Shown piece after piece: positions 20,021 through 52,437 of a stretch of 64,000 nucleotides of DNA (positions are counted from its first letter, which is position 1; each line of letters opens with the position of its first letter). A program made the translations under genes and the position numbers. The DNA comes from Caenorhabditis remanei (taxonomy: Eukaryota; Nematoda; Chromadorea; Rhabditida; Rhabditidae), in the NCBI RefSeq assembly GCF_010183535.1, contig NC_071328.1:15128001-15192000 (forward strand), given 5' to 3'. The notes under the pieces were generated by a model. It did not search any database. It had not been told where the DNA came from and was given only the letters and a program-made list of their open reading frames with translations.

Positions 20021-20026
20021 AATATA
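20021..20026. repeat. Target-site duplication AATATA (left)
   Basis: AATATA directly precedes the palindrome terminus AGTAGTATGG; the same six bases follow the other terminus at 38756-38761. Six-base duplications are characteristic of Maverick/Polinton integration. Confidence 0.75.
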
Positions 20027-20029
20027 AGT

Positions 20030-21140
20030 AGTATGGTAGGTGAAATTTACCATGATGTCGTGAAATTTACCATGAGATTTTGTGAATGACGGCATTCGCG
20101 CTTGGCTTGAGACCGAAGGCTAGCCTGAGACTTGGCCAGAGTGAGAGCAAAACAGAGCCGAAAAATACGCTGAAGGTGCGCCAGATGATTGGACCTGTAG
20201 GGTCACATGGTAAAGTTCACGGTATCTAGCCTTCACTAAGCTATGAATTTCGCCATGAGATGCAAGGTGGCCATCCATAGGCACCCATATCAAAGGTTAG
20301 CCAGACCCGAGGTCAGAGGGAGAGCAAAAAGAAGCCAAAAATGTGCCGAAGGCGTGCAAGCAGGCCTGACCTATAGGGTCATATGGGCAAATTGACGACA
20401 TTCAGCCTAACATCGGGTGAAGGTAATTTTGCCATGAGGTGCTGAAAGACTAGCCACTGACAACCAGCTTTAAGGCACCATCAGGTTCTCAGGGGTTCAA
20501 AAACTAACCAGAGCGAAGTCACTCACAGAGCTAAAAAACGCGTCGAAGGCGAGCCATATGGGTAAATTACCGACATCTGAATCACCGGTTTTGTGGTGAT
20601 AATTCTACCATGAGATTGAAACATGACAAGAGCTCCAGGATCGAAACCTGACCAGAGCACGTCTTATGGCCGAATTTCACCACAAGATATAGCGTCTTAT
20701 GAGCGCCAGCAGGTAAGTTAAGAACCGTCTTTCAGTAGTGGTAGTTTCAGATTTGACCAAGACCTAAAGCCCATCAAGGTGAGTTCGCCTGTTTTTCTGG
20801 TGATAGTTTTCATACATAGCGGGTCTATGGGGTGATAATTGCACAATCAAAAACCAAATTCAAAATTTTTCTTTTCTATTGTCTCTCTGAGCTGTTAAGA
20901 ATTGGAGAGACCCACGCCTCACACAACCAGGCAAGGGTTGTGCGAGTTGAGGGCAAAGGTAATGGTGGTCATTGTCTTAGGCAGTTTTCGTCATTTTTAT
21001 GGCGCATATGTTGTGTAGAGAGCCACAAGCACATGCGATTTCAATAAAATTTCATTTGTTTTTCATTAATTATCAACATTTTTGCTGTTTTATTCTTTAA
21101 AAAAACCAAATTATAGGCAGAGGAAACGAACAGACAATAG
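20030..21140. repeat. Left subterminal repeat region of the palindrome
   Basis: Degenerate tandem units of about 170-190 bp share GTGAAATTTACCATGAGAT, a GCYGAAGGYGYGCCA word (20170, 20343, 20540), GACCTATAGGGTCATATGG and ACCAGAGC phrases. No protein coding was found; the frame at 20832-21047 opens only on GTG and is unsupported. Mirrored at 37642-38752. Confidence 0.7.
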
Positions 21141-21146
21141 CAATAT

Positions 21147-21702
21147 TTAGGCTTGAAGGGCTGCATCATTCGGTTGAGGAGAGATTGGCGATGGCGACTG
21201 TGGCAGGTTTTTACATGAAGAGCACGATGAGCTGAAAGATTTGAACAAATATTAACAAAGATAATGATAGTTACCTCGGAACTCTGGCAATAAACAGTTC
21301 AGAAATTGGATAGAAGCGGCCATACTTATCCTTCACAACAAATTGTTCATCAGTAATTTTACCCCTGCTCTGGGCGTTGGTATAGTTAAGCAAATTAACA
21401 CTGTCTTGAACAGAGGGAACTTCGCTTGGGCACTTGGGAATCACATCAGGCCATTCAATAATTCGACCGTCTTCTTTATAGAAAATGGCTTCATCTCTTG
21501 CCATTAGATCCATTGTGAATCGTACATGAGCAGTATGCTGCATGAGATTTGAGGGCACACACAAAGGACGATATCTTATTTCTCTGTAAGCACGAGCTAG
21601 TAGACGACGACTTGTATACTGTTTGTCTCGAATGTCCTGAAGAGGGTCCATGCAATTGCAGTTGTTACCATGGTTACCGGGTTGTTTCAAATCTTGAGGC
21701 AT
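21147..21702 (-). CDS. Small palindrome protein A (left copy), unknown function
   Basis: Two exons, 21275-21702 and 21147-21231 on the minus strand, give 170 residues starting MPQDLKQPGN and ending with a Ser/Pro/Gln-rich tail (LPQSPSPISP). A splice acceptor lies just upstream of the ATG, so there is probably a 5' UTR exon. AATAAA follows the stop by about 50 bp. The core resembles protein B of the same element: both have RPLC/LPLC, a DEAIFY/DQAVFY motif, a central region, then DxQxVV and a closing YPISELFIARVP/YPVSELFIVRVP motif. No known family recognised. Transcribed divergently from the polymerase, sharing a 367-bp intergenic region with a CRE-like palindrome. Confidence 0.75.
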
Positions 21703-21881
21703 TGTTGAAAATCTGTAAAAACAATTATAGAAAAGGAAGAGCCCAGAATAAGGTCACATACCACTATGCCGTAATAAATCACGAATGGCACGATTGTTTC
21801 ACGTGACGGTTGAAAATATTGAAATATAGAACGAGAGAGTACATAGAGAAGAGACGAAGAGAACAAAGAGTGGTTAGAGAA

Positions 21882-21897
21882 ATGATGACGTCATCAT
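21882..21897. promoter_or_regulatory. CRE-like 16-bp palindrome in bidirectional promoter (left)
   Basis: ATGATGACGTCATCAT is a perfect 16-bp palindrome with a TGACGTCA core, the site bound by CREB/ATF-type bZIP factors. It lies in the 367 bp between divergent protein A and the polymerase, so it could drive both. Mirror copy at 36885-36900. Confidence 0.5.
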
Positions 21898-22069
21898 CCA
21901 AAAAGTAACAGCTGACTTTCGTTGAGGGGGATTCGAGAAATTCATAATTTGGGGCTCATTTTCACATTTTTACCGGATGGTAAGTGGTGACCTATTTCTG
22001 AGCTCTCTTGTTTTTTCTCTTTCATTTCTTTTCTTCATTTTGTTCTATTCTTCAGCTTTTTTTTCAGTT

Positions 22070-25000
22070 ATGAAACGCAAAGCGCTCAACACTCACAATT
22101 CCCTAGGAGGACCACATCCACCAAGCAGACTTGAACCGAAGGCGAAAATGACAAAGAAAAAACCAAAAAGTCGATTAGTTGGAAAAGAAGAAGAAGAAAT
22201 CAAAGATCACCCAAGTATGGAAAGAATCGACCAGAGAAAAGATCAAAATCAACCATCAACCAGTTCACCTCAGAATCAAGGAGAATTTTCAGAAGAAAAG
22301 GAAAGACCTTCAAATGCTAAACAAGCCAGAATAGTTTCGAAGCAGAGACTGAAGCGTAAGTCATAATGTGGATATAAATAATTTTAATTATTCATTTCAG
22401 ATGGCAGGGGATCACGACGAAAAACACGATTCCGAGAATATGAAAGAAGCGAGACGTTTCCAACAGCCGAGGAAGAAGAGTTCTTCACAGAAAATGTGAT
22501 AACTTCTAATGAACCACACTTTCGCAGACACAATAACCAGTTTCTTATTTCGGATACGGTTAGGATGAAATTCACCAATCTTGATGAAGTTAAAGACAAC
22601 AAGATGCTTCATGTTCATGTGGCTAAACTTTTAGACATTTTTATCCGCAGAATGCTCAAAAAAGCTGGAGGAAATTTGAAAACAACCAAATATTGGCTTC
22701 AGTAAGTTTTTATAAGTTCCAATTTTTGCTGATGAGTAATTTTACAGATTGAACCATGATGGCTACACCGATAACGATGGCTTCTTCGTAACTCACAAAA
22801 CATATGCCGTGGCGGATGGAGGGGCTATCATGAATACAATAGCAAAACAAATGCAATCAAATAAAGAGCTACGTTTAGATGAAAGCTTTACTGTTGCTAT
22901 GAACGTTTTCAAGGATAAACAAGCACGACTACGAGGCCGGGGAACACATAATACTCGAAAAACTGATAAAATCGAAAAAATCAGAAAAGAAATATTGGTA
23001 AGGCATATTATCTTTTGTCAAATTATAATACTTTTCATAACAGAAACAACATTTTGGCGTTAGCCTCTGCAGGATTACGGGAATGAGTCATTGTCTACCA
23101 AAGGCACTTGCACTAGGAAAACTGGAAAGTGATATACAAACCACGACCAACGGAGACCAAAAACAGAAAATGGAAAAGTTTTATCGAAGTCTCGTAAGAC
23201 CAGAGGTACTCTTGACATTTGATTGCTTGTAATATGTGTTTTTACAGATAACGTTTACATTCAAAAGCGAAGTTCAAGGAAAACTTGCCAGACAGCTTTT
23301 GGCCGATGCAGGGATGGATGTGAACAAAGAGGAGCATGACCGAAAAGATCTTCAAGAGCTTGCAAAATATCTTTCAAACTATCAAATAATATTGTGGACA
23401 GCGAACAATCAACATGCCGTCCCAACTGAAGAAAAGCGATACAACCAGGATGGAGACGGGTTCATTGGATTATTTTATTATGAAGGTCATTATGAACACG
23501 TCACCCACACCAAAGGAAAACATGCATCAAGGTAAGCTACCATCTTATCCCAAAGAAGATGTTTTTCAGATTTTGTTTCCAATGCTCTACTTTCGACGAC
23601 GACCAGCACTACCGAAAATGTAAAGCCAAATGCAAGAGATGTGGCAGCACAGGATGCAAACACGAAGATGAGAACATTTATTGCAAAATTTGTAAAATTT
23701 ACTTTCGAAGTAAAAATTGTTTTGATGCCCATCTCACTGCACAATCAAAGAAGGGAATACCGCATTGCAAGAAATATAGCAGGTGACTAATCAATTTGAC
23801 CAACATTACTAAAGGCTTACAGATGCGAAAATTGTAATATAATTGATAGAGCAGAGAGGATCCGTGGAGAAACACACGTCTGTAAAGCAAAGGACTTCTG
23901 TTCTATATGCAGGGAGAAAGCATTGAAAGGACATACTTGTGCCCACCACGTCCCTGACGAGAAGGAAAAGTTGAAGAAGCGAGAAAACCAAACGCAATGG
24001 GCCATTATCGTCTATGATATGGAATGTATTGTGTCGGAGTCAGGAGAATTCAATGGTAAGGGACATCAACATTCAACGTTTAAATTCTTCTTTCAGGACA
24101 TGTTGAAAGAGGGCCTAAGCACAAACCCAACTTTATTTGCGTAAGAATGATTTGCAGTGATTGTCGAGGAGAGGCAGGATGTCAATTATGTTTTCAACCA
24201 TGGACCTACAGCTACAAGGATTTTCCGCCTTTCAAAAATAACAAACACGATTCTCCATTAGCTAGTTTTGCAGATTTCCTGCTACATAATCCGCGGGCAG
24301 CGGGTGCTTACATTATAGCACACAATGGTGGAAGGTATGTTTCAGTAATAAACTTTTTTCAATTTTCAGGAAATTTCCAGATATGACCATGTTATGTTGC
24401 TAGCAGAGCTCGATAGACAAGGAGGCACAAAGGCAAAAGAACCAAAAATTTTACTGAATGGAATGACAATCATTACGGCAGAGTTTGAATATGAAAAAAG
24501 AAAGCTGCATTTTCGTGATTCGTTTCAATACTTGCAAATGGGACTAGCCAAAATGCCTGGAGCTTTTGGCCTGGAGGGCGAGGCAAAGGGCTTTTTTCCT
24601 CATCTATACAACCATCCAGACAATTACAATAAGGAATTGAAGACTTTACCATCGAAAGAATACTATAGTCCACAATTCATGACACCATCCACAAGAAAGG
24701 AATTTGATGAGTGGTATGCCAAGTGCTATCATGATGGGTTCAAGCTACATGATGAGCTGCTAAAGTATTGCCAATCTGATGTACGTATTCTCACTTTAAC
24801 GTTGATGGCTTTCATACAGGTAAGTAGACAAGGTTTTTATGAAACACTTTCTTGTTTTACAGATGTGTGAATCAACTTTCAATGGCTGGAACCCAATTGT
24901 GAATGGATGTACGATAGCGTCCTATGTCATGTTCGTATTGAAGCACGAATACATAAAAAAGGGAGATGTCGGATATATTCCCGAGAACGGTTATGGGGGA

Positions 25001-27203
25001 GGAAACAATTCAATGTTAGCGTTAAAGTATCTCCAATGGCTGGAGAAAATTGATCCAGCACTACATTTGAAGTACAAATTACGTGGAGGAGAAGTCAAAA
25101 TTGAAGCAGATGGGCACTCTTACTATGCAGACGCTTTCAATGAGGCCACAAATGAAGTTTTTGAGGTATTTTTTTGTATACGAACCACTACCCACACACA
25201 CACACACACATTGACCCCAAGGAAAACTGAACCTCACAACAAGTGAGGCGAAGGAAGCCTTTTTTCTCTATATTGCTCCGAATAATAACAATTTTCATGT
25301 AATTTTTCAGATTTATGGATGTGTATGGCACGGGTGCCCGAAGTGTTATCCGGATCGTGACAAGAAATGTCCAATGAAACCCAACAAGACAATGGAAGAT
25401 TTGTATAAGGAAACCATAATGAGAGAAGAAGCTATTCAGAATGAGGGATTCAATATCAGTGCTGTTTGGGAATGTGAAATATACGAACAGATGGAGAAAG
25501 ATAGAGAGATGCAAAAATTCTTTGAACTGGTAAGTTGAAATCAATAATTAAAATGACTGAGTCGTTTTTAGAATAAGTACGACCAAAGGCTTAAGCCTCG
25601 TGAAGCATTATATGGAGGAAGAACACAAGCATTTCGTTCAATGGCAGCAGCATTCGACGATATGCTTCTGAGTTATTTTGATTTCAATAGCTTATACCCA
25701 TATCTTAATGCGGGAGGCACAGCTTACCCGCGAGGAAACCCTACTGTGGAGTTTGAAAACTTTCCCAGACTAGATGAACCGTTGAAACTGAAAGGTATGT
25801 CAACTTTTTTACCTTTTTATTAATAATTTCATTTTTTAGGAATTGTGTTTTGTGATGTTCTGCCCCCACAAGATGCAGCCATGGGATATTTACCTCAGAA
25901 AATAATGAAGAAGCTCATGTTTGTTCTATGTAGAACGTGTGCGAATGATCAGAATATTGAAGGAAAGTGTACACACACCAAGGTCTCTGAGCGATTTTTG
26001 ACCGGAGTATGGTGCACAGATGAACTGAATAAGGCCATTTCCAAAGGGTACAAGGTACTCAAGTACCACGAAATCTGGCATTGGCCAGAAGAGGCATGGG
26101 TCAAAGGAGGATTCTTTGCTGATTACATCAAGCCATTATTGAAATTGAAGCATGAAAGCAGTGGATGGCCAAAGGAAAACATGACAGATATGGAAAAGAA
26201 AGCATACATCTCAAGAATATGGGAGATGGATGGAGTCAAACTGGATCCCTCAAAAATTAAAAAGAACAAAGCATTGCGAAGCCTTTGCAAAATATTCCTA
26301 AACTCTGCCTGGGGTAAGTAGATATTTGTTATTTTCTAATGTTTTACTTTTCTTTTTTCAGGAAAGTTCGCACAAAATCCAATGAAGACCGAGACAAGAC
26401 TCGTCTACAACACTGATGGCCTTACAATGGCCAATTTTTTCAATGACCCCAATTTTGAACCGACAGGAATGCTTCCTTATGGAGAGCACAAGTATTTCAT
26501 ATCAAGAAGGCCCAAGAAAGATTTTCTCAAGGCATCACCATTTACAAATCTTGCTATCGCGGCAATCACAACATGTGCGGCCAGATTAAGACTTACTGAA
26601 GCTATAGAGAGAGTTGGAATAGAGAATATGATTTATTGTGGTAAGTGAATAAATGCTAGAAAGAATATAATTATCACGTTTTCAGATACCGACTCTGTGA
26701 TTTTCAAACAGAAGAAAGACAGCGACCCTCTGGGGGACCTCAAAGGAGACAATTTGGGCTACTTAACTAATGAAATTCCACAAGGGAATGAACTGGTTGA
26801 AGCCGTAGCGATGGCTCCAAAAGTTTATGCGTTGAAGATAAGACACAAGGATGGCAGCTACAACTATACAGTCAAAGCAAAAGGAATGTGTTTGAACAGT
26901 GGAAACACAGGAAGTATCAACTTTGACACTATGAAAGAGAGTGTGAGTATCAGATGCGTATTATTTTGGCAAACTTATTCTTTTCAGATGAATACATTTA
27001 TTCGAGATGGTATAGTAGCACCCATGGAGGGTGAGATGCTGACGTTCAAGAGAGGTGATAACGCGCTGGATGGTCTTTGGACATGCGCAATGAAGAAGCA
27101 ACTCAACCCAAGGATGGATAAGGGACACTATGTGGATGGCGTTGTAGCACCATTTGGGCAACTCCCAGGAAACATACAATTGATCAATGATTATCCTTTC
27201 TGA
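22070..27203 (+). CDS. Protein-primed family B DNA polymerase (left copy)
   Basis: Sixteen exons (22070-22355, 22401-22701, 22748-22997, 23044-23205, 23248-23531, 23570-23782, 23823-24055, 24097-24334, 24381-24819, 24863-25165, 25311-25529, 25572-25794, 25840-26313, 26362-26640, 26686-26942, 26988-27203) keep one frame and encode about 1458 residues. The N-terminus is basic and low-complexity, followed by an unassigned domain and a Cys/His-rich region (CKRCGSTGCKH, YCKICKIYF, CSICREKALKG). Exonuclease motifs follow: YDMEC (Exo I), AHNGGRYD (Exo II) and YCQSDVRIL (Exo III). Then come a GCVWHGCPKCYP motif and polymerase motifs A (DFNSLYP), B (KIFLNSAWGKF) and C (YCDTDSV). Order and motifs match the protein-primed DNA_pol_B_2 family found in Mavericks, adenoviruses and linear plasmids. 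All catalytic acids are present. It is longer than usual for the family because of the N-terminal extension. AATAAA follows the stop by about 8 bp. Start chosen as the first ATG after an acceptor; an ATG at 21977 is cut off by a donor. Confidence 0.9.
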
Positions 27204-27262
27204 CATTGTAAATAAATATTGAATATAATTTTTCGTGAATATAGGAATATTTGACAGCAATT

Positions 27263-27371
27263 TGTGCACAATTCAAACACAATTCAAACACAATTTGCAC
27301 AATCTTTGCACAATCTTTGCACAATCTTTGCACAATCTTTGCACAATTCAAACACAATTCAAACACAATCT
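27263..27371. repeat. Minisatellite of TTTGCACAATC and ATTCAAACACA units (left)
   Basis: Tandem 11-12 bp units TTTGCACAATC and AATTCAAACACA lie just after the polymerase poly(A) signal. The mirror array 31411-31519 has the same number and order of units. Confidence 0.85.
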
Positions 27372-28233
27372 TTACATGAAAAATTATACAGAAATCATTA
27401 ACTTTTCAGTTAAAACGTGAAAAAATATTGAAATTTTACCTGTAAACACACTAATATTCAAGTTTCCGAGGCCTGCATTTCAGAGGATCTGCAATATTTT
27501 ATAGGTATGGATAGATATTTCTGAACCGGGCACACATTTTCATCGATAGATGCAGATTTCTGGAGGCAAGAGGTGGCATTTTTGAAGGCCTAGTATACTT
27601 TTTAAGCACTGGGACACAGGTTATTGAGTCAGAAAGCTTACTTTTCATGTGCATTTACACTTTTTGAGAGCATATATGGTCACTTTGGAAGGGTTACTAT
27701 ACATTTTAAGCGCTGGCATGCACATTTTAGCTAATGATTATGTACATTTTAGCCAATGATTATGTACATTTTCAAAGTTCGCGCCTATGTAAAACCTAAT
27801 TTTCAATGGTAGACAATGCCTTGTTGTGATGGGGCCTCACGAAAAAACGCTGCTTTCTAGTAGAAAAATAGAAAAAATTACTGACATGAGCACTGTTTTC
27901 GAATTAATACTATTAATGTGATGGCGAAGCATAGGTATTGATGAGACTTTGATATGTGAAATTCACTATGCTGAGAAGAATCAGGCATATGTTTGAAGAA
28001 TGAGCACATATATTCCAAAGCAGAGGCCTGTCAACCCGTGTACATGCACATAAATCGCGCACAGACACATGTTCTGGGGGCGCGTAAGAACATTATTTAT
28101 GATGACTAGTCACATTTTGAGAAAAAATGGAGAAATTTTCGGCATTATTGCGTAAAGAATAGAACAATAACACAATTTTATTGACGAATTAAATAAAATC
28201 AGAAAAATAAGGAAAAAATATGTCACAACACAA
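27372..28233. other. Non-coding stretch between convergent genes (left arm)
   Basis: About 860 bp between the convergent polymerase and protein B. It contains short imperfect repeats (TATGTACATTTTAGCCAATGAT twice near 27735-27765) but no ORF or RNA gene that I can support. Mirrored at 30549-31410. Confidence 0.5.
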
Positions 28234-28947
28234 TTATTCATTCATTGATCTGACAATTGGTAGCATATTGTTCATCTCGTTCCGGAGCAACATGTCACGA
28301 GGGCGGTGAGCGCTACGAGGAATTGAAGCATCAGACGAAGGCGTAGACCATCTCATGCAGCTGTCTCGTTTCTTCTGAGCACGAACTTCTCTATCGCTTT
28401 GCATAGCCGCTGGTCTGTAACATGTTATGTATTGGAGGTGAAGAGAATGTTGGGGTTACCTTGGAACTCTGACAATGAACAACTCCGAAACAGGGTAAGC
28501 AGCACCACATCCATTGATCACGACATATTGATTGTCATCAATCTTATAGCACCATTTAGCCACAAAGTATTGGAAAAGGTTGAGGTTTCCCTGTCCACAT
28601 TGAACTTCTGTTGGCCGAAGTGGAGTTACATAACAACCAACCAAGACCTCCCCAGCTCGGCTGTAAAACACGGCTTGATCAGAAGTCAGTTGGTCCAAAC
28701 AACCACGAATGTATTCCAAATCTGTTCGGCGATTAACATCAGGACAAAGAGGAAGGTATCCAATTTTCTTTAAAGCGCAATACATCTTGTGAATTTCCTT
28801 GTAAGTGGATTGTTTGAATTCACGAAAACGATTCTCGCATACTTGATGGTTCAGCGTCTTTAAGTCGGAAGCATTGCTGTCTAGTTTGGGTGTCACATCT
28901 CTCAAATCTTCGCATTTATCGAAACCTTCGCACGAATCCGAATCCAT
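28234..28947 (-). CDS. Small palindrome protein B (left copy), unknown function
   Basis: Exons 28460-28947 and 28234-28414 on the minus strand encode about 222 residues. The frame extends ten codons further upstream only from a GTG, so the ATG giving MDSDSCEGFD is chosen. The acidic, Cys-containing N-terminus is followed by a helical stretch and the core shared with protein A (LPLC, DQAVFY, DDNQYVV, YPVSELFIVRVP). The basic tail (REVRAQKKRDSCMRW to PRSAHRPRDMLLRNEMNNML) could bind nucleic acid. AATAAA follows within about 60 bp. Convergent with the polymerase. No known family recognised. Confidence 0.75.
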
Positions 28948-29244
28948 AAAGTCACAATAAATTCCCACGAGAGCCACGAATATAGGTAACCTCTCTTGAT
29001 GGCGTCAAAATATAAGAATGAACAAAGTCAAAAAATGAAGAACTATAGGAGAGAGAGTGAGAGACGCAGAGAAAGAGACGCTGGGATACATACCTACATC
29101 ATAGCAAAATGTAAATCCTATAAGGCAATTCTTGATTTAGAAAATTTAAATTATATCTCCAAATTACTATTTTTCACATTATCCATTCTTTCATGTACTT
29201 TTAAAGAATTAAAATTTTTTTTTTTTATAATATTATTTCTATTT

Positions 29245-29439
29245 TTATTTTGAAAATTTCCCGGAAAATATCATACTTTCCCCATTTTCTTCAACACATT
29301 GAAATTGTTCACCAACTGACACATAACTGCGAGTAGATTGGAAAGAAGAATTCAGGGACGGGGACACGTCAGCTGTCATACGCAAATTTCCGGGTGTGTC
29401 ATTTTCTCCGAGGGCGTACGATAAATTCGGGTCTCTCAT
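29245..29439 (-). CDS. Truncated ORF reading from the central spacer into the left arm
   Basis: A 64-codon open frame begins with an ATG (MRDPNLSYALG) at the edge of the unpaired spacer and continues into the left arm, ending SMIFSGKFSK then TAA. About half lies in the single-copy 99 bp. Its composition looks protein-like, and it is on the same strand as protein B just downstream. It may be the 3' end of a gene otherwise lost when the palindrome formed, or a chance frame. No family recognised. Confidence 0.35.
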   Translation of the reverse strand: MRDPNLSYALGENDTPGNLRMTADVSPSLNSSFQSTRSYVSVGEQFQCVEENGESMIFSGKFSK

Positions 29440-29440
29440 C
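29342..29440. other. 99-bp unpaired spacer at the palindrome centre
   Basis: The left arm ends at CGAGTAGATTGG (to 29341) and the right arm begins CCAATCTACTCG (from 29441). The bases between do not pair with each other. This is the only part of the 18.7-kb element present once. Confidence 0.9.
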
Positions 29441-29834
29441 CCAATCTACTCGCAGTTATGTGTCAGTTGGTGAACAATTTCAATGTGTTGAAGAAAATGG
29501 GGAAAGTATGATATTTTCCGGGAAATTTTCAAAATAAAAATAGAAATAATATTATAAAAAAAAAAAATTTTAATTCTTTAAAAGTACATGAAAGAATGGA
29601 TAATGTGAAAAATAGTAATTTGGAGATATAATTTAAATTTTCTAAATCAAGAATTGCCTTATAGGATTTACATTTTGCTATGATGTAGGTATGTATCCCA
29701 GCGTCTCTTTCTCTGCGTCTCTCACTCTCTCTCCTATAGTTCTTCATTTTTTGACTTTGTTCATTCTTATATTTTGACGCCATCAAGAGAGGTTACCTAT
29801 ATTCGTGGCTCTCGTGGGAATTTATTGTGACTTT

Positions 29835-30548
29835 ATGGATTCGGATTCGTGCGAAGGTTTCGATAAATGCGAAGATTTGAGAGATGTGACACCCAAACTA
29901 GACAGCAATGCTTCCGACTTAAAGACGCTGAACCATCAAGTATGCGAGAATCGTTTTCGTGAATTCAAACAATCCACTTACAAGGAAATTCACAAGATGT
30001 ATTGCGCTTTAAAGAAAATTGGATACCTTCCTCTTTGTCCTGATGTTAATCGCCGAACAGATTTGGAATACATTCGTGGTTGTTTGGACCAACTGACTTC
30101 TGATCAAGCCGTGTTTTACAGCCGAGCTGGGGAGGTCTTGGTTGGTTGTTATGTAACTCCACTTCGGCCAACAGAAGTTCAATGTGGACAGGGAAACCTC
30201 AACCTTTTCCAATACTTTGTGGCTAAATGGTGCTATAAGATTGATGACAATCAATATGTCGTGATCAATGGATGTGGTGCTGCTTACCCTGTTTCGGAGT
30301 TGTTCATTGTCAGAGTTCCAAGGTAACCCCAACATTCTCTTCACCTCCAATACATAACATGTTACAGACCAGCGGCTATGCAAAGCGATAGAGAAGTTCG
30401 TGCTCAGAAGAAACGAGACAGCTGCATGAGATGGTCTACGCCTTCGTCTGATGCTTCAATTCCTCGTAGCGCTCACCGCCCTCGTGACATGTTGCTCCGG
30501 AACGAGATGAACAATATGCTACCAATTGTCAGATCAATGAATGAATAA
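29835..30548 (+). CDS. Small palindrome protein B (right copy)
   Basis: Exons 29835-30322 and 30368-30548 are the mirror of the left copy, with the same predicted protein of about 222 residues as far as I read it. It is transcribed away from the centre, head to head with its twin across the 99-bp spacer and short flanks, so the two share one central promoter region. AATAAA near 30600. Confidence 0.75.
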
Positions 30549-31410
30549 TTGTGTTGTGACATATTTTTTCCTTATTTTTCTGATTTTATTTAATTCGTCA
30601 ATAAAATTGTGTTATTGTTCTATTCTTTACGCAATAATGCCGAAAATTTCTCCATTTTTTCTCAAAATGTGACTAGTCATCATAAATAATGTTCTTACGC
30701 GCCCCCAGAACATGTGTCTGTGCGCGATTTATGTGCATGTACACGGGTTGACAGGCCTCTGCTTTGGAATATATGTGCTCATTCTTCAAACATATGCCTG
30801 ATTCTTCTCAGCATAGTGAATTTCACATATCAAAGTCTCATCAATACCTATGCTTCGCCATCACATTAATAGTATTAATTCGAAAACAGTGCTCATGTCA
30901 GTAATTTTTTCTATTTTTCTACTAGAAAGCAGCGTTTTTTCGTGAGGCCCCATCACAACAAGGCATTGTCTACCATTGAAAATTAGGTTTTACATAGGCG
31001 CGAACTTTGAAAATGTACATAATCATTGGCTAAAATGTACATAATCATTAGCTAAAATGTGCATGCCAGCGCTTAAAATGTATAGTAACCCTTCCAAAGT
31101 GACCATATATGCTCTCAAAAAGTGTAAATGCACATGAAAAGTAAGCTTTCTGACTCAATAACCTGTGTCCCAGTGCTTAAAAAGTATACTAGGCCTTCAA
31201 AAATGCCACCTCTTGCCTCCAGAAATCTGCATCTATCGATGAAAATGTGTGCCCGGTTCAGAAATATCTATCCATACCTATAAAATATTGCAGATCCTCT
31301 GAAATGCAGGCCTCGGAAACTTGAATATTAGTGTGTTTACAGGTAAAATTTCAATATTTTTTCACGTTTTAACTGAAAAGTTAATGATTTCTGTATAATT
31401 TTTCATGTAA
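30549..31410. other. Non-coding stretch between convergent genes (right arm)
   Basis: Mirror of 27372-28233. No gene or RNA recognised. Confidence 0.5.
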
Positions 31411-31519
31411 AGATTGTGTTTGAATTGTGTTTGAATTGTGCAAAGATTGTGCAAAGATTGTGCAAAGATTGTGCAAAGATTGTGCAAATTGTGTTTGAAT
31501 TGTGTTTGAATTGTGCACA
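31411..31519. repeat. Minisatellite of GATTGTGCAAA units (right)
   Basis: Mirror of the array at 27263-27371, with identical unit order and number. Confidence 0.85.
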
Positions 31520-31578
31520 AATTGCTGTCAAATATTCCTATATTCACGAAAAATTATATTCAATATTTATTTACAATG

Positions 31579-34500
31579 TCAGAAAGGATAATCATTGATC
31601 AATTGTATGTTTCCTGGGAGTTGCCCAAATGGTGCTACAACGCCATCCACATAGTGTCCCTTATCCATCCTTGGGTTGAGTTGCTTCTTCATTGCGCATG
31701 TCCAAAGACCATCCAGCGCGTTATCACCTCTCTTGAACGTCAGCATCTCACCCTCCATGGGTGCTACTATACCATCTCGAATAAATGTATTCATCTGAAA
31801 AGAATAAGTTTGCCAAAATAATACGCATCTGATACTCACACTCTCATTCATAGTGTCAAAGTTGATACTTCCTGTGTTTCCACTGTTCAAACACATTCCT
31901 TTTGCTTTGACTGTATAGTTGTAGCTGCCATCCTTGTGTCTTATCTTCAACGCATAAACTTTTGGAGCCATCGCTACGGCTTCAACCAGTTCATTCCCTT
32001 GTGGAATTTCATTAGTTAAGTAGCCCAAATTGTCTCCTTTGAGGTCCCCCAGAGGGTCGCTGTCTTTCTTCTGTTTGAAAATCACAGAGTCGGTATCTGA
32101 AAACGTGATAATTATATTCTTTCTAGCATTTATTCACTTACCACAATAAATCATATTCTCTATTCCAACTCTCTCTATAGCTTCAGTAAGTCTTAATCTG
32201 GCCGCACATGTTGTGATTGCCGCGATAGCAAGATTTGTAAATGGTGATGCCTTGAGAAAATCTTTCTTGGGCCTTCTTGATATGAAATACTTGTGCTCTC
32301 CATAAGGAAGCATTCCTGTCGGTTCAAAATTGGGGTCATTGAAAAAATTGGCCATTGTAAGGCCATCAGTGTTGTAGACGAGTCTTGTCTCGGTCTTCAT
32401 TGGATTTTGTGCGAACTTTCCTGAAAAAAGAAAAGTAAAACATTAGAAAATAACAAATATCTACTTACCCCAGGCAGAGTTTAGGAATATTTTGCAAAGG
32501 CTTCGCAATGCTTTGTTCTTTTTAATTTTTGAGGGATCCAGTTTGACTCCATCCATCTCCCATATTCTTGAGATGTATGCTTTCTTTTCCATATCTGTCA
32601 TGTTTTCCTTTGGCCATCCACTGCTTTCATGCTTCAATTTCAATAATGGCTTGATGTAATCAGCAAAGAATCCTCCTTTGACCCATGCCTCTTCTGGCCA
32701 ATGCCAGATTTCGTGGTACTTGAGTACCTTGTACCCTTTGGAAATGGCCTTATTCAGTTCATCTGTGCACCATACTCCGGTCAAAAATCGCTCAGAGACC
32801 TTGGTGTGTGTACACTTTCCTTCAATATTCTGATCATTCGCACACGTTCTACATAGAACAAACATGAGCTTCTTCATTATTTTCTGAGGTAAATATCCCA
32901 TGGCTGCATCTTGTGGGGGCAGAACATCACAAAACACAATTCCTAAAAAATGAAATTATTAATAAAAAGGTAAAAAAGTTGACATACCTTTCAGTTTCAA
33001 CGGTTCATCTAGTCTGGGAAAGTTTTCAAACTCCACAGTAGGGTTTCCTCGCGGGTAAGCTGTGCCTCCCGCATTAAGATATGGGTATAAGCTATTGAAA
33101 TCAAAATAACTCAGAAGCATATCGTCGAATGCTGCTGCCATTGAACGAAATGCTTGTGTTCTTCCTCCATATAATGCTTCACGAGGCTTAAGCCTTTGGT
33201 CGTACTTATTCTAAAAACGACTCAGTCATTTTAATTATTGATTTCAACTTACCAGTTCAAAGAATTTTTGCATCTCTCTATCTTTCTCCATCTGTTCGTA
33301 TATTTCACATTCCCAAACAGCACTGATATTGAATCCCTCATTCTGAATAGCTTCTTCTCTCATTATGGTTTCCTTATACAAATCTTCCATTGTCTTGTTG
33401 GGTTTCATTGGACATTTCTTGTCACGATCCGGATAACACTTCGGGCACCCGTGCCATACACATCCATAAATCTGAAAAATTACATGAAAATTGTTATTAT
33501 TCGGAGCAATATAGAGAAAAAAGGCTTCCTTCGCCTCACTTGTTGTGAGGTTCAGTTTTCCTTGGGGTCAATGTGTGTGTGTGTGTGTGGGTAGTGGTTC
33601 GTATACAAAAAAATACCTCAAAAACTTCATTTGTGGCCTCATTGAAAGCGTCTGCATAGTAAGAGTGCCCATCTGCTTCAATTTTGACTTCTCCTCCACG
33701 TAATTTGTACTTCAAATGTAGTGCTGGATCAATTTTCTCCAGCCATTGGAGATACTTTAACGCTAACATTGAATTGTTTCCTCCCCCATAACCGTTCTCG
33801 GGAATATATCCGACATCTCCCTTTTTTATGTATTCGTGCTTCAATACGAACATGACATAGGACGCTATCGTACATCCATTCACAATTGGGTTCCAGCCAT
33901 TGAAAGTTGATTCACACATCTGTAAAACAAGAAAGTGTTTCATAAAAACCTTGTCTACTTACCTGTATGAAAGCCATCAACGTTAAAGTGAGAATACGTA
34001 CATCAGATTGGCAATACTTTAGCAGCTCATCATGTAGCTTGAACCCATCATGATAGCACTTGGCATACCACTCATCAAATTCCTTTCTTGTGGATGGTGT
34101 CATGAATTGTGGACTATAGTATTCTTTCGATGGTAAAGTCTTCAATTCCTTATTGTAATTGTCTGGATGGTTGTATAGATGAGGAAAAAAGCCCTTTGCC
34201 TCGCCCTCCAGGCCAAAAGCTCCAGGCATTTTGGCTAGTCCCATTTGCAAGTATTGAAACGAATCACGAAAATGCAGCTTTCTTTTTTCATATTCAAACT
34301 CTGCCGTAATGATTGTCATTCCATTCAGTAAAATTTTTGGTTCTTTTGCCTTTGTGCCTCCTTGTCTATCGAGCTCTGCTAGCAACATAACATGGTCATA
34401 TCTGGAAATTTCCTGAAAATTGAAAAAAGTTTATTACTGAAACATACCTTCCACCATTGTGTGCTATAATGTAAGCACCCGCTGCCCGCGGATTATGTAG

Positions 34501-36712
34501 CAGGAAATCTGCAAAACTAGCTAATGGAGAATCGTGTTTGTTATTTTTGAAAGGCGGAAAATCCTTGTAGCTGTAGGTCCATGGTTGAAAACATAATTGA
34601 CATCCTGCCTCTCCTCGACAATCACTGCAAATCATTCTTACGCAAATAAAGTTGGGTTTGTGCTTAGGCCCTCTTTCAACATGTCCTGAAAGAAGAATTT
34701 AAACGTTGAATGTTGATGTCCCTTACCATTGAATTCTCCTGACTCCGACACAATACATTCCATATCATAGACGATAATGGCCCATTGCGTTTGGTTTTCT
34801 CGCTTCTTCAACTTTTCCTTCTCGTCAGGGACGTGGTGGGCACAAGTATGTCCTTTCAATGCTTTCTCCCTGCATATAGAACAGAAGTCCTTTGCTTTAC
34901 AGACGTGTGTTTCTCCACGGATCCTCTCTGCTCTATCAATTATATTACAATTTTCGCATCTGTAAGCCTTTAGTAATGTTGGTCAAATTGATTAGTCACC
35001 TGCTATATTTCTTGCAATGCGGTATTCCCTTCTTTGATTGTGCAGTGAGATGGGCATCAAAACAATTTTTACTTCGAAAGTAAATTTTACAAATTTTGCA
35101 ATAAATGTTCTCATCTTCGTGTTTGCATCCTGTGCTGCCACATCTCTTGCATTTGGCTTTACATTTTCGGTAGTGCTGGTCGTCGTCGAAAGTAGAGCAT
35201 TGGAAACAAAATCTGAAAAACATCTTCTTTGGGATAAGATGGTAGCTTACCTTGATGCATGTTTTCCTTTGGTGTGGGTGACGTGTTCATAATGACCTTC
35301 ATAATAAAATAATCCAATGAACCCGTCTCCATCCTGGTTGTATCGCTTTTCTTCAGTTGGGACGGCATGTTGATTGTTCGCTGTCCACAATATTATTTGA
35401 TAGTTTGAAAGATATTTTGCAAGCTCTTGAAGATCTTTTCGGTCATGCTCCTCTTTGTTCACATCCATCCCTGCATCGGCCAAAAGCTGTCTGGCAAGTT
35501 TTCCTTGAACTTCGCTTTTGAATGTAAACGTTATCTGTAAAAACACATATTACAAGCAATCAAATGTCAAGAGTACCTCTGGTCTTACGAGACTTCGATA
35601 AAACTTTTCCATTTTCTGTTTTTGGTCTCCGTTGGTCGTGGTTTGTATATCACTTTCCAGTTTTCCTAGTGCAAGTGCCTTTGGTAGACAATGACTCATT
35701 CCCGTAATCCTGCAGAGGCTAACGCCAAAATGTTGTTTCTGTTATGAAAAGTATTATAATTTGACAAAAGATAATATGCCTTACCAATATTTCTTTTCTG
35801 ATTTTTTCGATTTTATCAGTTTTTCGAGTATTATGTGTTCCCCGGCCTCGTAGTCGTGCTTGTTTATCCTTGAAAACGTTCATAGCAACAGTAAAGCTTT
35901 CATCTAAACGTAGCTCTTTATTTGATTGCATTTGTTTTGCTATTGTATTCATGATAGCCCCTCCATCCGCCACGGCATATGTTTTGTGAGTTACGAAGAA
36001 GCCATCGTTATCGGTGTAGCCATCATGGTTCAATCTGTAAAATTACTCATCAGCAAAAATTGGAACTTATAAAAACTTACTGAAGCCAATATTTGGTTGT
36101 TTTCAAATTTCCTCCAGCTTTTTTGAGCATTCTGCGGATAAAAATGTCTAAAAGTTTAGCCACATGAACATGAAGCATCTTGTTGTCTTTAACTTCATCA
36201 AGATTGGTGAATTTCATCCTAACCGTATCCGAAATAAGAAACTGGTTATTGTGTCTGCGAAAGTGTGGTTCATTAGAAGTTATCACATTTTCTGTGAAGA
36301 ACTCTTCTTCCTCGGCTGTTGGAAACGTCTCGCTTCTTTCATATTCTCGGAATCGTGTTTTTCGTCGTGATCCCCTGCCATCTGAAATGAATAATTAAAA
36401 TTATTTATATCCACATTATGACTTACGCTTCAGTCTCTGCTTCGAAACTATTCTGGCTTGTTTAGCATTTGAAGGTCTTTCCTTTTCTTCTGAAAATTCT
36501 CCTTGATTCTGAGGTGAACTGGTTGATGGTTGATTTTGATCTTTTCTCTGGTCGATTCTTTCCATACTTGGGTGATCTTTGATTTCTTCTTCTTCTTTTC
36601 CAACTAATCGACTTTTTGGTTTTTTCTTTGTCATTTTCGCCTTCGGTTCAAGTCTGCTTGGTGGATGTGGTCCTCCTAGGGAATTGTGAGTGTTGAGCGC
36701 TTTGCGTTTCAT
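31579..36712 (-). CDS. Protein-primed family B DNA polymerase (right copy)
   Basis: Mirror image of the left polymerase. Exon borders follow from 58782 minus the left coordinates, so the first exon is 36427-36712 and the last 31579-31794. All sixteen exons, splice sites and Exo I-III and Pol A-C motifs are intact here too. The only sequence difference I noticed is at 31846, where the codon for Lys in the left copy (26936) reads Asn (DTMNES instead of DTMKES), downstream of motif C. Both copies therefore look able to encode a full enzyme. Confidence 0.9.
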
Positions 36713-36884
36713 AACTGAAAAAAAAGCTGAAGAATAGAACAAAATGAAGAAAAGAAATGAAAGAGAAAAAACAAGAGAGCTCAGAAATAGGTCACCACTT
36801 ACCATCCGGTAAAAATGTGAAAATGAGCCCCAAATTATGAATTTCTCGAATCCCCCTCAACGAAAGTCAGCTGTTACTTTTTGG

Positions 36885-36900
36885 ATGATGACGTCATCAT
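36885..36900. promoter_or_regulatory. CRE-like 16-bp palindrome in bidirectional promoter (right)
   Basis: Mirror of 21882-21897, ATGATGACGTCATCAT, between the right polymerase start and protein A. Confidence 0.5.
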
Positions 36901-37079
36901 TTCTCTAACCACTCTTTGTTCTCTTCGTCTCTTCTCTATGTACTCTCTCGTTCTATATTTCAATATTTTCAACCGTCACGTGAAACAATCGTGCCATTCG
37001 TGATTTATTACGGCATAGTGGTATGTGACCTTATTCTGGGCTCTTCCTTTTCTATAATTGTTTTTACAGATTTTCAACA

Positions 37080-37635
37080 ATGCCTCAAGATTTGAAACAA
37101 CCCGGTAACCATGGTAACAACTGCAATTGCATGGACCCTCTTCAGGACATTCGAGACAAACAGTATACAAGTCGTCGTCTACTAGCTCGTGCTTACAGAG
37201 AAATAAGATATCGTCCTTTGTGTGTGCCCTCAAATCTCATGCAGCATACTGCTCATGTACGATTCACAATGGATCTAATGGCAAGAGATGAAGCCATTTT
37301 CTATAAAGAAGACGGTCGAATTATTGAATGGCCTGATGTGATTCCCAAGTGCCCAAGCGAAGTTCCCTCTGTTCAAGACAGTGTTAATTTGCTTAACTAT
37401 ACCAACGCCCAGAGCAGGGGTAAAATTACTGATGAACAATTTGTTGTGAAGGATAAGTATGGCCGCTTCTATCCAATTTCTGAACTGTTTATTGCCAGAG
37501 TTCCGAGGTAACTATCATTATCTTTGTTAATATTTGTTCAAATCTTTCAGCTCATCGTGCTCTTCATGTAAAAACCTGCCACAGTCGCCATCGCCAATCT
37601 CTCCTCAACCGAATGATGCAGCCCTTCAAGCCTAA
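37080..37635 (+). CDS. Small palindrome protein A (right copy)
   Basis: Exons 37080-37507 and 37551-37635 are the mirror of 21147-21702, with the same predicted 170 residues. The ATG is preceded by a TTTTTACAG acceptor ten bases upstream, implying a 5' UTR exon in the divergent promoter region. AATAAA at about 37688. Confidence 0.75.
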
Positions 37636-37641
37636 ATATTG

Positions 37642-38755
37642 CTATTGTCTGTTCGTTTCCTCTGCCTATAATTTGGTTTTTTTAAAGAATAAAACAGCAA
37701 AAATGTTGATAATTAATGAAAAACAAATGAAATTTTATTGAAATCGCATGTGCTTGTGGCTCTCTACACAACATATGCGCCATAAAAATGACGAAAACTG
37801 CCTAAGACAATGACCACCATTACCTTTGCCCTCAACTCGCACAACCCTTGCCTGGTTGTGTGAGGCGTGGGTCTCTCCAATTCTTAACAGCTCAGAGAGA
37901 CAATAGAAAAGAAAAATTTTGAATTTGGTTTTTGATTGTGCAATTATCACCCCATAGACCCGCTATGTATGAAAACTATCACCAGAAAAACAGGCGAACT
38001 CACCTTGATGGGCTTTAGGTCTTGGTCAAATCTGAAACTACCACTACTGAAAGACGGTTCTTAACTTACCTGCTGGCGCTCATAAGACGCTATATCTTGT
38101 GGTGAAATTCGGCCATAAGACGTGCTCTGGTCAGGTTTCGATCCTGGAGCTCTTGTCATGTTTCAATCTCATGGTAGAATTATCACCACAAAACCGGTGA
38201 TTCAGATGTCGGTAATTTACCCATATGGCTCGCCTTCGACGCGTTTTTTAGCTCTGTGAGTGACTTCGCTCTGGTTAGTTTTTGAACCCCTGAGAACCTG
38301 ATGGTGCCTTAAAGCTGGTTGTCAGTGGCTAGTCTTTCAGCACCTCATGGCAAAATTACCTTCACCCGATGTTAGGCTGAATGTCGTCAATTTGCCCATA
38401 TGACCCTATAGGTCAGGCCTGCTTGCACGCCTTCGGCACATTTTTGGCTTCTTTTTGCTCTCCCTCTGACCTCGGGTCTGGCTAACCTTTGATATGGGTG
38501 CCTATGGATGGCCACCTTGCATCTCATGGCGAAATTCATAGCTTAGTGAAGGCTAGATACCGTGAACTTTACCATGTGACCCTACAGGTCCAATCATCTG
38601 GCGCACCTTCAGCGTATTTTTCGGCTCTGTTTTGCTCTCACTCTGGCCAAGTCTCAGGCTAGCCTTCGGTCTCAAGCCAAGCGCGAATGCCGTCATTCAC
38701 AAAATCTCATGGTAAATTTCACGACATCATGGTAAATTTCACCTACCATACTACT
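37642..38755. repeat. Right subterminal repeat region of the palindrome
   Basis: Mirror of 20027-21140, with the same degenerate 170-190-bp units, ending CCATACTACT. Non-coding as far as can be seen. Confidence 0.7.
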
Positions 38756-38761
38756 AATATA
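38756..38761. repeat. Target-site duplication AATATA (right)
   Basis: Matches 20021-20026 exactly and abuts the right terminus. Confidence 0.75.
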
Positions 38762-38930: not shown

Positions 38931-40268
38931 CAAAAAAGTTCCGACATTTTTTACCTACGCGTGTTTGCGGACTTAGTGCTAAATTATTAAATTTTGCACT
39001 GACTAGGGAATGACTTACACATAGGTTGGAGATACACAACATGACCTATATCGCTGGAAAGCTGACGTTTCCCTGATTCCGAATCTATATTCAGTTTTTG
39101 CAGTGGCCCTCCCAGTTTTGAGAAATTTGGCTCCAAAGTTAGGGTAAATTTTAGCGCTCAAACTCGAGTTTCCAACCCGCTTGTTGCCCCAACACGTGAA
39201 CCCATTCGGAGGACAGTTAAATCAGCGGTTGAATGGTCGAGGGGATTACAGGTGTGGTAGTAGGTGGACACTCTATGGTTCGATTCTTTGCATTTTTTCC
39301 TTCTTTTTTACTTTTTTGTAATCCTCGTTTTTGGGTCCCATGGTCATCACAATGTGTCAGAATTCGGTTTTTGAAGCTTTTCGAGTCTATATTGACTTTC
39401 TGCGACGATTTAAGAACAATTATTTTTTTCAAGAAATTCAACTTTTCTGTGACCAAGTCCATGTTGGGCAGTCGGAATTTGTTTTTGAAAAAGTGTCGTT
39501 AAAAGTTAGAAAAACAATAGAAAATGCTATAGCAAGGTATAAAAAGTATTTTTCCAAAGTTTACTTGTCTTGTTACTCTGGTATATACTTTTTTGAAGAA
39601 ATTACTCTGCTTCTTATGCGCCCCCCGGTGATTCGAAGTTAAAGTCGTAGTGAAGATCTCTATCATGTAAACATGGTGGAATCTAATATCAAAACGCATT
39701 TTCTATTGTTTTTCTAACTTTTAACGACACTTTTTCAAAAAAAATTCCGACTGCCCAACATGGACTTGGTCACAGAAAAGTTGAATTTCTTGAAAATAAT
39801 AATTGTTCTTAAATCGTCGCAGAAAGTCAATATAGACTCGAAAAGCTTCAAAAACCGAATTCTGACACATTGTGATGACCATGGGACCCAAAAACGAGGA
39901 TTACAAAAAAGTAAAAAAGAAGGAAAAAATGCAAAGAATCGAACCATAGAGTTTCCACCTACTACCACACCTGTAATCCCCTCGACCATTCAACCGCTGA
40001 TTTAACTGTCCTCCGAATGGGTTCACGTGTTGGGGCAACAAGCGGGTTGGAAACTCGAGTTTGAGCGCTAAAATTTACCCTAACTTTGGAGCCGAATTTC
40101 TCAAAACTGGGAGGGCCACTGCAAAAACTGAATATAGATTCGGAATCAGGGAAACGTCAGCTTTCCAGCGATATAGGTCATGTTGTGTATCTCCAACCTA
40201 TGTGTAAGTCATTCCCTAGTGAGTCCGCAAACACGCGTCGGTAAAAAATGTCGGAACTTTTTTATTTC
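38931..40268. mobile_element. Inverted-repeat element, CTAGGGAATG family
   Basis: The arms at about 38935-39526 and 39696-40266 are inverted (mirrored pairs sum to 79222 over most of their length). They begin AAAAAGTTCCGACATTTTTTACC and include TGACCTATATCGCTGGAAAGCTGA. The left arm holds an extra ~30-bp insertion near 38974-39003 that is itself a hairpin (AGTGC and GCACT edges). Both arms carry a box-B-like GGTTCGATTC. Mirrored 81-codon frames are due to the symmetry and show no protein features. The right end stops 36 bp before the stop codon of the F-box gene at 40304-41374. Relatives at 60745-61640 and 62525-62835. Confidence 0.8.
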
Positions 40269-50550: not shown

Positions 50551-50970
50551 TGGTATTCTAGAATGAGGGGATTGGTCAAACGGTTTGAAAGGAAAGACAA
50601 AAAGAACTGAAGTGAAAATGAATGTGTCGCGCCTTGCAAGAGCAAAGAGGACTGTGTGAATGAATAGGAAAAAATAAAGTGTACCGTCTTGAGGGCCAAG
50701 GAGAAGGACTGTTAGGCCCGCCCTCCGTCTATTTGCGTTCAGTTGTCACTGTACCTGTCACTCTAACCTCTCATTGTAATGTGCTAATGAGGTTAGTTTT
50801 GATGAGACGGTGAGCAGGTGGTACTTAAGACTCAAAAAGGTTAGTATTGAGTACTGTCTGGTCTTCACCAAGACACGGGATCTAGCGAAGAGAGCGGCAA
50901 ACAAGAAGGAGAGGGACGAACTATCTGTCATATTTTTACAGTGACTTCCAACTTCCTGGTAAGAAATGTG

Positions 50971-52388: not shown

Positions 52389-52437
52389 GAAATGTGAATA
52401 AAATTACAAGAGATCAACATTCATTTATTCAGAAAAA

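Follow-up and report, generated by a model that had tools for sequence, protein, structure and literature searches.

Introduction

Polintons/Mavericks are flanked by a 6-bp target-site duplication (TSD), and what is known of their replication in animals comes mostly from reading genomes. According to published accounts, these elements are 15-20 kb in size, comparable to the palindromes described here (PMC4028283), and all Polintons encode both an RVE integrase and a protein-primed polymerase (PMC4642659). Here we analysed a 64,000-nucleotide stretch of the Caenorhabditis remanei assembly (hereafter the window; C1:15128001-15192000, N-free throughout) and an 18.7-kb element within it, E1 (window positions 20027-38755), which carries a PolB DNA polymerase gene on each arm of a near-perfect palindrome. 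We consider it probable, at roughly two in three, that E1 is one of a class of palindromic, non-autonomous Mavericks that arise recurrently as fold-back (snap-back) satellites and are integrated in trans. These palindromes resemble Polintons/Mavericks in a PolB of the protein-primed family, in inverted termini, here reaching to the centre, and in the 6-bp duplication. They differ in that the entire element is a palindrome rather than an element with short terminal repeats, and in that neither an RVE integrase nor a nearby packaging ATPase match was detected. By the pairing of polymerase and RVE integrase (PMC4642659), the palindromes would not be full Polintons but derivatives.

Symmetric defective adenovirus genomes, which need a helper, are likewise protein-primed linear DNA in which one end is duplicated in inverted orientation and stands at both termini. 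To our knowledge they are transient culture products, and we know of no integration, lasting lineages or PolB selection among them, whereas palindromic Mavericks integrate. Mammalian sex chromosomes carry palindromes with large arms that are >99.9% identical and undergo concerted evolution; these are immobile, unlike palindromic Mavericks, which are mobile and bring target duplications and replication genes with them. Adeno-associated virus (AAV) replicates by rolling hairpin. Its snapback genome (5'-SBG) is a self-complementary dimer of one genome end with helper-dependent replication and a proposed double-stranded RNA (dsRNA) effect, and template switching is proposed for AAV nonunit genomes (PMC8235507). 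The likeness lies in an inverted dimer of one end, with the other half lost, that is propagated beside intact genomes; the difference is that AAV lacks protein priming and its 5'-SBG are particles in a stock, whereas palindromic Mavericks form integrated, transposing lineages.

Results

E1 is an inverted dimer of a Maverick PolB end

Arm-to-arm comparison identified E1 as a near-perfect palindrome of two 9,315-bp arms with a single mismatch, and a repeat search of the window recovered the same palindrome, bearing out the arm length and 99-bp spacer given in the original prediction. The element is an inverted dimer of the Maverick PolB end, with the terminus of that end, AGTAGTATGG, present on both sides. 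The AATATA duplication claimed around the unit was also confirmed: it is exactly 6 bp and no longer, and the flanks outside it showed no complementarity to each other. No self-complementarity was found in the E1 spacer, and the SMRTbell adapter was not detected there, the longest common word being 7 nt. From its outer end inwards each arm comprises ~1.2 kb in which no gene is listed, then gene A (-), PolB (+), a stretch of ~1 kb carrying 11-bp tandem repeats, gene B (-) and then the spacer. Features of E1, in window coordinates, are as follows.

20021-20026, no strand: left TSD, AATATA (E1 flank comparison)
20027-29341, + strand: left arm, 9,315 bp (self-comparison and repeat search)
21271-21702, - strand: gene A, left copy; 143 aa, without a Pfam family; paralogue of gene B
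22070-27203, + strand: PolB gene, left copy, with short introns (PF03175 and collinear exons)
26936, + strand: sole arm mismatch, A here and T at the mirrored position 31846; PolB residue Lys versus Asn (by-eye reading)
28456-28977, - strand: gene B, left copy, 173 aa (match to C. remanei protein P0001)
29245-29445, - strand: open frame that crosses from spacer to left arm; coding signal weak (p 0.076 in the spacer, 0.030 in the arm end)
29342-29440, no strand: central asymmetric spacer, 99 bp, 49% GC, homologous to the centre of E2
29441-38755, - strand: right arm, 9,315 bp (self-comparison and repeat search)
29805-30326, + strand: gene B, right copy (open reading frame (ORF) list and homology match)
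31579-36712, - strand: PolB gene, right copy, mirror of 22070-27203 (second PF03175 match)
37080-37511, + strand: gene A, right copy (ORF list and homology match)
38756-38761, no strand: right TSD, AATATA (E1 flank comparison)

A search for a homologue or parent protein of the spacer-borne frame gave none. Viral-contig searches with the E1 terminus, spacer and a PolB exon returned no relatives, in a tool that may omit records of this genome.

Gene content of the arms

Four of six PolB exon pieces, submitted singly, matched PF03175. The exons were collinear with C. remanei CRE_07890 over residues 1-1396 (window 22070-26939) and aligned to the C-terminal ends of the C. nigoni and C. brenneri PolBs (window 27200); the E1 PolB was nearest to other Caenorhabditis PolBs. 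Motifs that appear to be those of the exonuclease and polymerase were spotted by eye. The longest ORF per arm starting at ATG, GTG or TTG was 173 aa, so that neither PolB copy is one open frame. The earlier claim of two complete PolB genes therefore stands for intron-containing genes with collinear exons and falls for single open frames, completeness being judged from exon collinearity and not from a transcript. Membership of the PolB family suggests that the E1 polymerase would be protein-primed.

The 222-aa C. remanei protein P0001 (GCK72_003248) shared 100% identity across 94% of the gene B product and 35% identity with gene A in alignment; by sequence similarity, genes A and B are paralogues. 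Neither had a Pfam match above cut-off, and a structure model of P0001 was of low confidence (mean pLDDT 50.4). Relatives of the two genes fell mostly within the PolB clade of E1; some weak or incomplete matches lay on C43, an integrase-bearing contig (two), C6 (two) and C2 (one). A six-frame Pfam scan of the E1 arm, with X at stops, returned PolB and a sub-threshold zinc finger only, at E 0.1, and, PolB apart, Pfam scans of this arm found no Maverick domain, be it integrase, ATPase or another. Whole-frame scans of the arm of a second palindrome, E3, returned nothing, PolB included; since its own PolB was missed, scans of this kind are weak as negatives. Gene B points outward in E1 and E2 and centre-ward in E3-E8, mirrored on both arms, and a symmetric inversion of this gene needs either a re-formed palindrome or homogenisation of the arms.

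Mirrored PolB pairs recur across the genome

A PF03175 profile search of the 130.5-Mb assembly gave 131 matches, from the best 91 of 322 candidates scored. This search and the integrase and rve searches below score the best candidates only, and the counts refer to the matches listed. The matches were grouped into at least 76 PolB copies, 38 of which form 19 mirrored pairs. Without exception (19/19), the partners of these pairs, within 20 kb of each other, faced inward, gave identical matches and had a single mirror sum. Twelve of the 19 pairs belong to the PolB clade of E1, with 93-100% identity to E1.

Eight elements (E1-E8) were read end to end, whilst the remaining pairs are known mostly from their mirrored PolB coordinates. 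All eight were palindromic end to end, with an arm identity of 99.94-100% across the outer 9.3-9.8 kb; in the inner 1.1 kb of E7 it was 98.6%. The spacers of E4-E8 were imperfectly self-complementary (81-89% across about 240 bp), and the same comparison gave no comparable match for E1 and E3. The relatives of E1 with termini or spacers read, and their 6-bp TSDs, are listed below.

E2, C4:1871588-1890422: spacer 98 bp; TSD TGAATG
E3, C4:23979960-24001323: spacer 217 bp; TSD GTCATT
E4, C4:8485808-8507558: spacer 298 bp; TSD ATCGGA
E5, C4:23723550-23745255: spacer 321 bp; TSD TGAGAT
E6, C4:5186589-about 5208289: spacer 321 bp; last right-hand bases differ from the terminus
E7, C3:4626444-4648192: spacer 321 bp; TSD CTCCAT
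E8, C2:1156706-1178411: spacer 321 bp
E9, C5:8366671-8388029: both termini read; TSD GATGAC

Amongst the other pairs, E16 was mirrored across all 3,510 bp examined (99.97%) and E17 across 2,660 of 3,465 bp examined (99.89%). Gene B and PolB matches gave the same mirror sums in E9, E10 and E11, as did the inner match of E14 and its PolB matches. Searches with single PolB pieces added 11 further pairs that face inward, with a distant type of PolB and 7-9 kb separating the matches (C4:20226974, C6:4854975, C5:13473516, C5:4400468, C98:242652, C5:20643191, C1:15592501, C4:13673673, C6:5205294, C6:9370653 and C2:3229103). These are possibly another palindromic family; the C98 pair has an rve match within 6 kb.

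Two apparent single arms, each with terminus, gene A, PolB and gene B, were found at C4:20267977-20277742 and C2:14878614-14888374, and no mirror partner was detected for either. On contig C40, PolB and integrase matches were mirrored about ~100909 with the PolB copies about 89 kb apart, which represents either an extensive inverted duplication or a fold-back of the assembly.

The palindrome itself is the mobile unit

The TSD test covered ten loci, namely E1-E9 and the unplaced contig C108. A perfect 6-bp duplication was present at seven of them, each different from the others, and the chance of 7/9 non-fold-back loci carrying one is about 1.6e-23. The centres of E1 and E2 were homologous, their spacers differing at 17/99 columns, and E3-E8 shared a second homologous centre, in which E8 equals E5, E7 is 94% and E4 about 84% identical, and E3 is homologous over about half its length. 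Because homologous centres occur at different sites with different duplications (E1 versus E2; E3, E4, E5 and E7 among themselves), the mobile unit is the palindrome itself. The spacer of E6, which has a doubtful end, is the exact reverse complement of that of E5, as should be expected of a symmetric element without intrinsic direction.

No Maverick integrase detected at the palindromes

A search with the Maverick integrase located at C1:13.16 Mb gave 118 matches, from the best 116 of 185 candidates scored. Among these, an integrase lay within 8 kb of 23/38 unpaired PolB copies and 0/38 paired copies (Fisher p 5e-6 for 0/19 pairs versus 23/38 unpaired copies). The integrases near unpaired PolB were convergent in 15 cases, at 0.8-2.4 kb from the nearest PolB match, and on the same strand in eight. 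None of the 19 PolB intervals contained a match to the Maverick integrase (0/19; 118 matches listed) or to rve (150 matches listed), or had one within 6 kb. Genome-wide, the model of the packaging ATPase (Pox_A32) matched twice, on C6 and on C122, in neither case near any of the 19 palindromes; no packaging ATPase, protease or capsid Pfam match was found in the E1 arm, the capsid and protease models not having been searched genome-wide. Integrase-bearing PolB copies coexist in the same genome and include sisters of E13, E14 and E17.

The original prediction had read E1 as two copies of a half-length Maverick dimerised head to head, integrated as a single unit and distinct in architecture, and had proposed a genome-wide check for copies with a different 6-bp duplication. 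Such copies were found (E2, E3, E4, E5, E7 and E9), and the duplications, homologous centres and lack of a detected integrase support this description. 'Half-length' also agrees with the integrase convergent on PolB in the 15 unpaired copies and not found at the 19 pairs. Beyond that prediction, the class is widespread and represented in several lineages of PolB, and arm identity is kept as the elements diverge from one another.

Palindromes occur in several PolB lineages

A tree was inferred from a 150-residue PolB piece (27 rows, 151 columns), including ten palindrome rows and seven integrase rows. The palindrome label needed five changes, of which at least four were forced by well-supported branches. 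E13 paired with the integrase-bearing INT_C4_1.95 (97/92), E14 grouped with INT_C6 and INT_C159 (98/96) and E17 paired with INT_C1 (100/99), while E1-E5, E7, CRE_07890 and one C. brenneri PolB formed a less well supported group (81/91). The mirror centre of E13 lies at about C2:5481722 and that of E14 at about C4:3923443; the integrase-bearing relatives of the two are at C4:1.95 Mb, at C6:16.5 Mb and on C159. Loss of the integrase being simpler than its gain, palindromes probably derive from integrase-bearing forms and not the reverse.

The PolB piece of E17 shared 99% protein identity with three integrase-bearing copies and 97.8% DNA identity with one. Its centre retains two integrase-like stretches (79% and 89%), the catalytic rve core being missing between them. 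A query with the inner arm of E17 also found two more mirrored loci, at C5 ~21377822 (21371701-21383943) and C3 ~13401020 (13394900-13407140), which have near-identical centre offsets and broken integrase pieces in mirror, and are related to the centre of E17.

Arms evolve in concert and purifying selection acts on PolB

In the outer 6 kb, sites at which the arms agree but the elements differ were counted against sites at which the arms disagree. The counts were 72 to 0 for E1/E2, 279 to 1 for E3/E4, 210 to 1 for E3/E5, 279 to 0 for E4/E5, 0 to 0 for E5/E7 and 1088 to 1 for E1/E3; the inner 260 bp of E1/E2 gave 31 to 0. If the centres are shared by descent, as spacer homology suggests, the arms changed in step while palindromic. 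Identity between E1 and E2 was 99.6-99.8% at arm positions 3001-7000 and 85.8% near the centre, and this unevenness means that segments of arms may also have passed from one element to another.

PolB in the palindromes is under purifying selection. The ratio of nonsynonymous to synonymous substitution rates (dN/dS), calculated with the first exon omitted, no open frame having been found in the span used for it, was 0.10-0.11 for E1 versus E3, E4, E5 or E7 (dS about 0.5). Among E3, E4, E5 and E7, whose centres are homologous, it was 0.08-0.18 in the five comparisons listed; one stop was present in the E3 comparisons. Gene A was less constrained in most comparisons (0.31-0.80; 0.05 for E3/E5) and gene B was mixed (0.07-0.57).

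Repeats surrounding E1

About 240 bp to the right of E1 lies a near-perfect inverted repeat (38998-40224; 494-nt arms, 99% identical, 239 nt apart), and another spans 50966-52393 (319-nt arms, 99%) and contains 19-bp tandem units. A tandem repeat at 5980-7346 has 4.5 copies of a 301-bp unit holding a tRNA-like B-box word in a by-eye reading; an ARAGORN scan found no tRNA. Diverged repeat copies with open frames occupy both strands of 40000-60500, one frame having a sub-threshold match to the F-box-associated family FBA_2 (20.9 bits, cut-off 22).

Discussion

The AAV snapback genome is the nearest documented analogue that we found. The palindromes resemble snapback satellites of an integrating element that replicates by protein priming, and the fold-back and integration in trans proposed here would proceed as follows. 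In the course of protein-primed replication by strand displacement, a strand that has been displaced or broken and carries the PolB-end origin would end slightly beyond PolB. It would fold back a short way past that gene, prime itself and be copied to its own terminal-protein end. A protein-primed start at the single origin of the resulting hairpin would then yield a symmetric linear duplex with an origin and an integrase site at each end, which the integrase of intact Mavericks could insert in trans. Since a single strand of such an element is self-complementary, each later cycle can include a hairpin stage at which either arm may correct or template the other; correction of this kind would explain both the concerted arms and the greater difference near the centre.

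Several observations count against this proposal of recurrent trans-mobilised satellites. No 6-bp duplication was found at three of the ten loci tested (E6, E8 and C108): the right end of E6 adjoins a run of N, the left flank of E8 equals that of E5 (1,500 bp, 99.7%), and C108 looks like an artefact since its fold-back includes its flank. Among the matches listed, 15/38 unpaired PolB copies are also without an integrase within 8 kb, and with 12/19 pairs in one PolB clade (93-100%) the integrase contrast does not amount to 19 independent observations; mobilisation in trans, and the need for a helper, would follow from the missing integrase. Shuffled labels need as many changes on the tree (mean 5.5), so that the palindrome label is scattered and not clustered, and the label changes carry no direction, with several forks open. 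The partial alignment of E17 is the closest case of a junction, and the palindromes may have formed by another rearrangement in place of fold-back; the symmetry of E17 begins inside the examined stretch (16885580), and its outer ends may not be termini. Some PolB neighbours lie on the same strand (C6:184858/199201 and C4:21041197/21047079), and one inward pair of unlike PolB copies is unmirrored (C4:24290615/24304963). Chromosomal gene conversion would likewise keep arms identical.

That last process is central to an alternative in which the terminal repeat expanded after integration: the integrase half is lost, repair copies the PolB half across, by break-induced replication or by gene conversion from the terminal repeat, and conversion then homogenises the arms. 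Such a history would also give 6-bp duplications and near-identical arms, and chromosomal palindromes elsewhere are homogenised by gene conversion. We nevertheless regard it as unlikely. It still requires the palindromes to be mobile, given homologous centres at different sites with different duplications (E1/E2; E3, E4, E5 and E7), it needs tracts of >9 kb that end in non-homology, and it must recur in several lineages, always at the PolB end, albeit in a PolB search blind to other ends. A single old, self-sufficient Maverick family with half-element terminal repeats, in which the palindrome arose once and the integrase diverged or was replaced, would account for the 12/19 pairs in one clade (93-100%), the purifying selection on PolB and the presence of genes A and B across members. 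This history is more doubtful again, as at least four label changes are forced and palindromes are close sisters of integrase-bearing copies (99% for E17); the E1 arm Pfam scans, a weak negative, returned no integrase, and the genome searches with the integrase and rve are better ones.

Assembly error, through missed-adapter or fold-back reads or mis-joins, is hardly credible as a general explanation, even though some loci look wrong (E8 with the flank of E5, C108 with a fold-back including its flank, C40 mirrored over about 89 kb). Artefacts mirror their flanks and leave no duplication, whereas at seven loci here the flanks are unlike and the duplication exact; moreover, the E1 spacer is asymmetric, centres are common to several loci and hundreds of arm sites are element-specific. 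For E1 itself, the exact duplication, unlike flanks, asymmetric spacer and lack of adapter rule out an artefact. We retain this reading for C108 and C40, and it possibly applies to E6 and E8.

A further-reaching version of the satellite proposal is tentative, and we hold it at somewhat less than even odds: that Mavericks repeatedly make a lasting self-complementary satellite form with hairpin proofreading and selection on its own PolB, whose hairpin RNA possibly feeds RNA interference (RNAi) against intact Mavericks. As both PolB genes face the centre, read-through would yield hairpin RNA; a dsRNA effect of palindromic Mavericks, by analogy with that proposed for AAV, is a hypothesis only.

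We found no description of palindromic Mavericks among the papers listed from the openly licensed PubMed Central literature, going by titles and the openings of abstracts, and do not claim that none is in print. Palindromes 18-22 kb long endanger correct assembly, and those in other genomes may be overlooked. They also invite the question of whether intact Mavericks and their satellites are linked by parasitism or by RNAi silencing. The many snap-back derivatives in this genome, some near-identical in PolB to integrase-bearing relatives, would constitute a fossil record of protein-primed replication, and such a genome makes the replication mechanism testable at base level. Finally, the palindromes suggest that persistence is possible for a self-complementary DNA element whose arms evolve as one.

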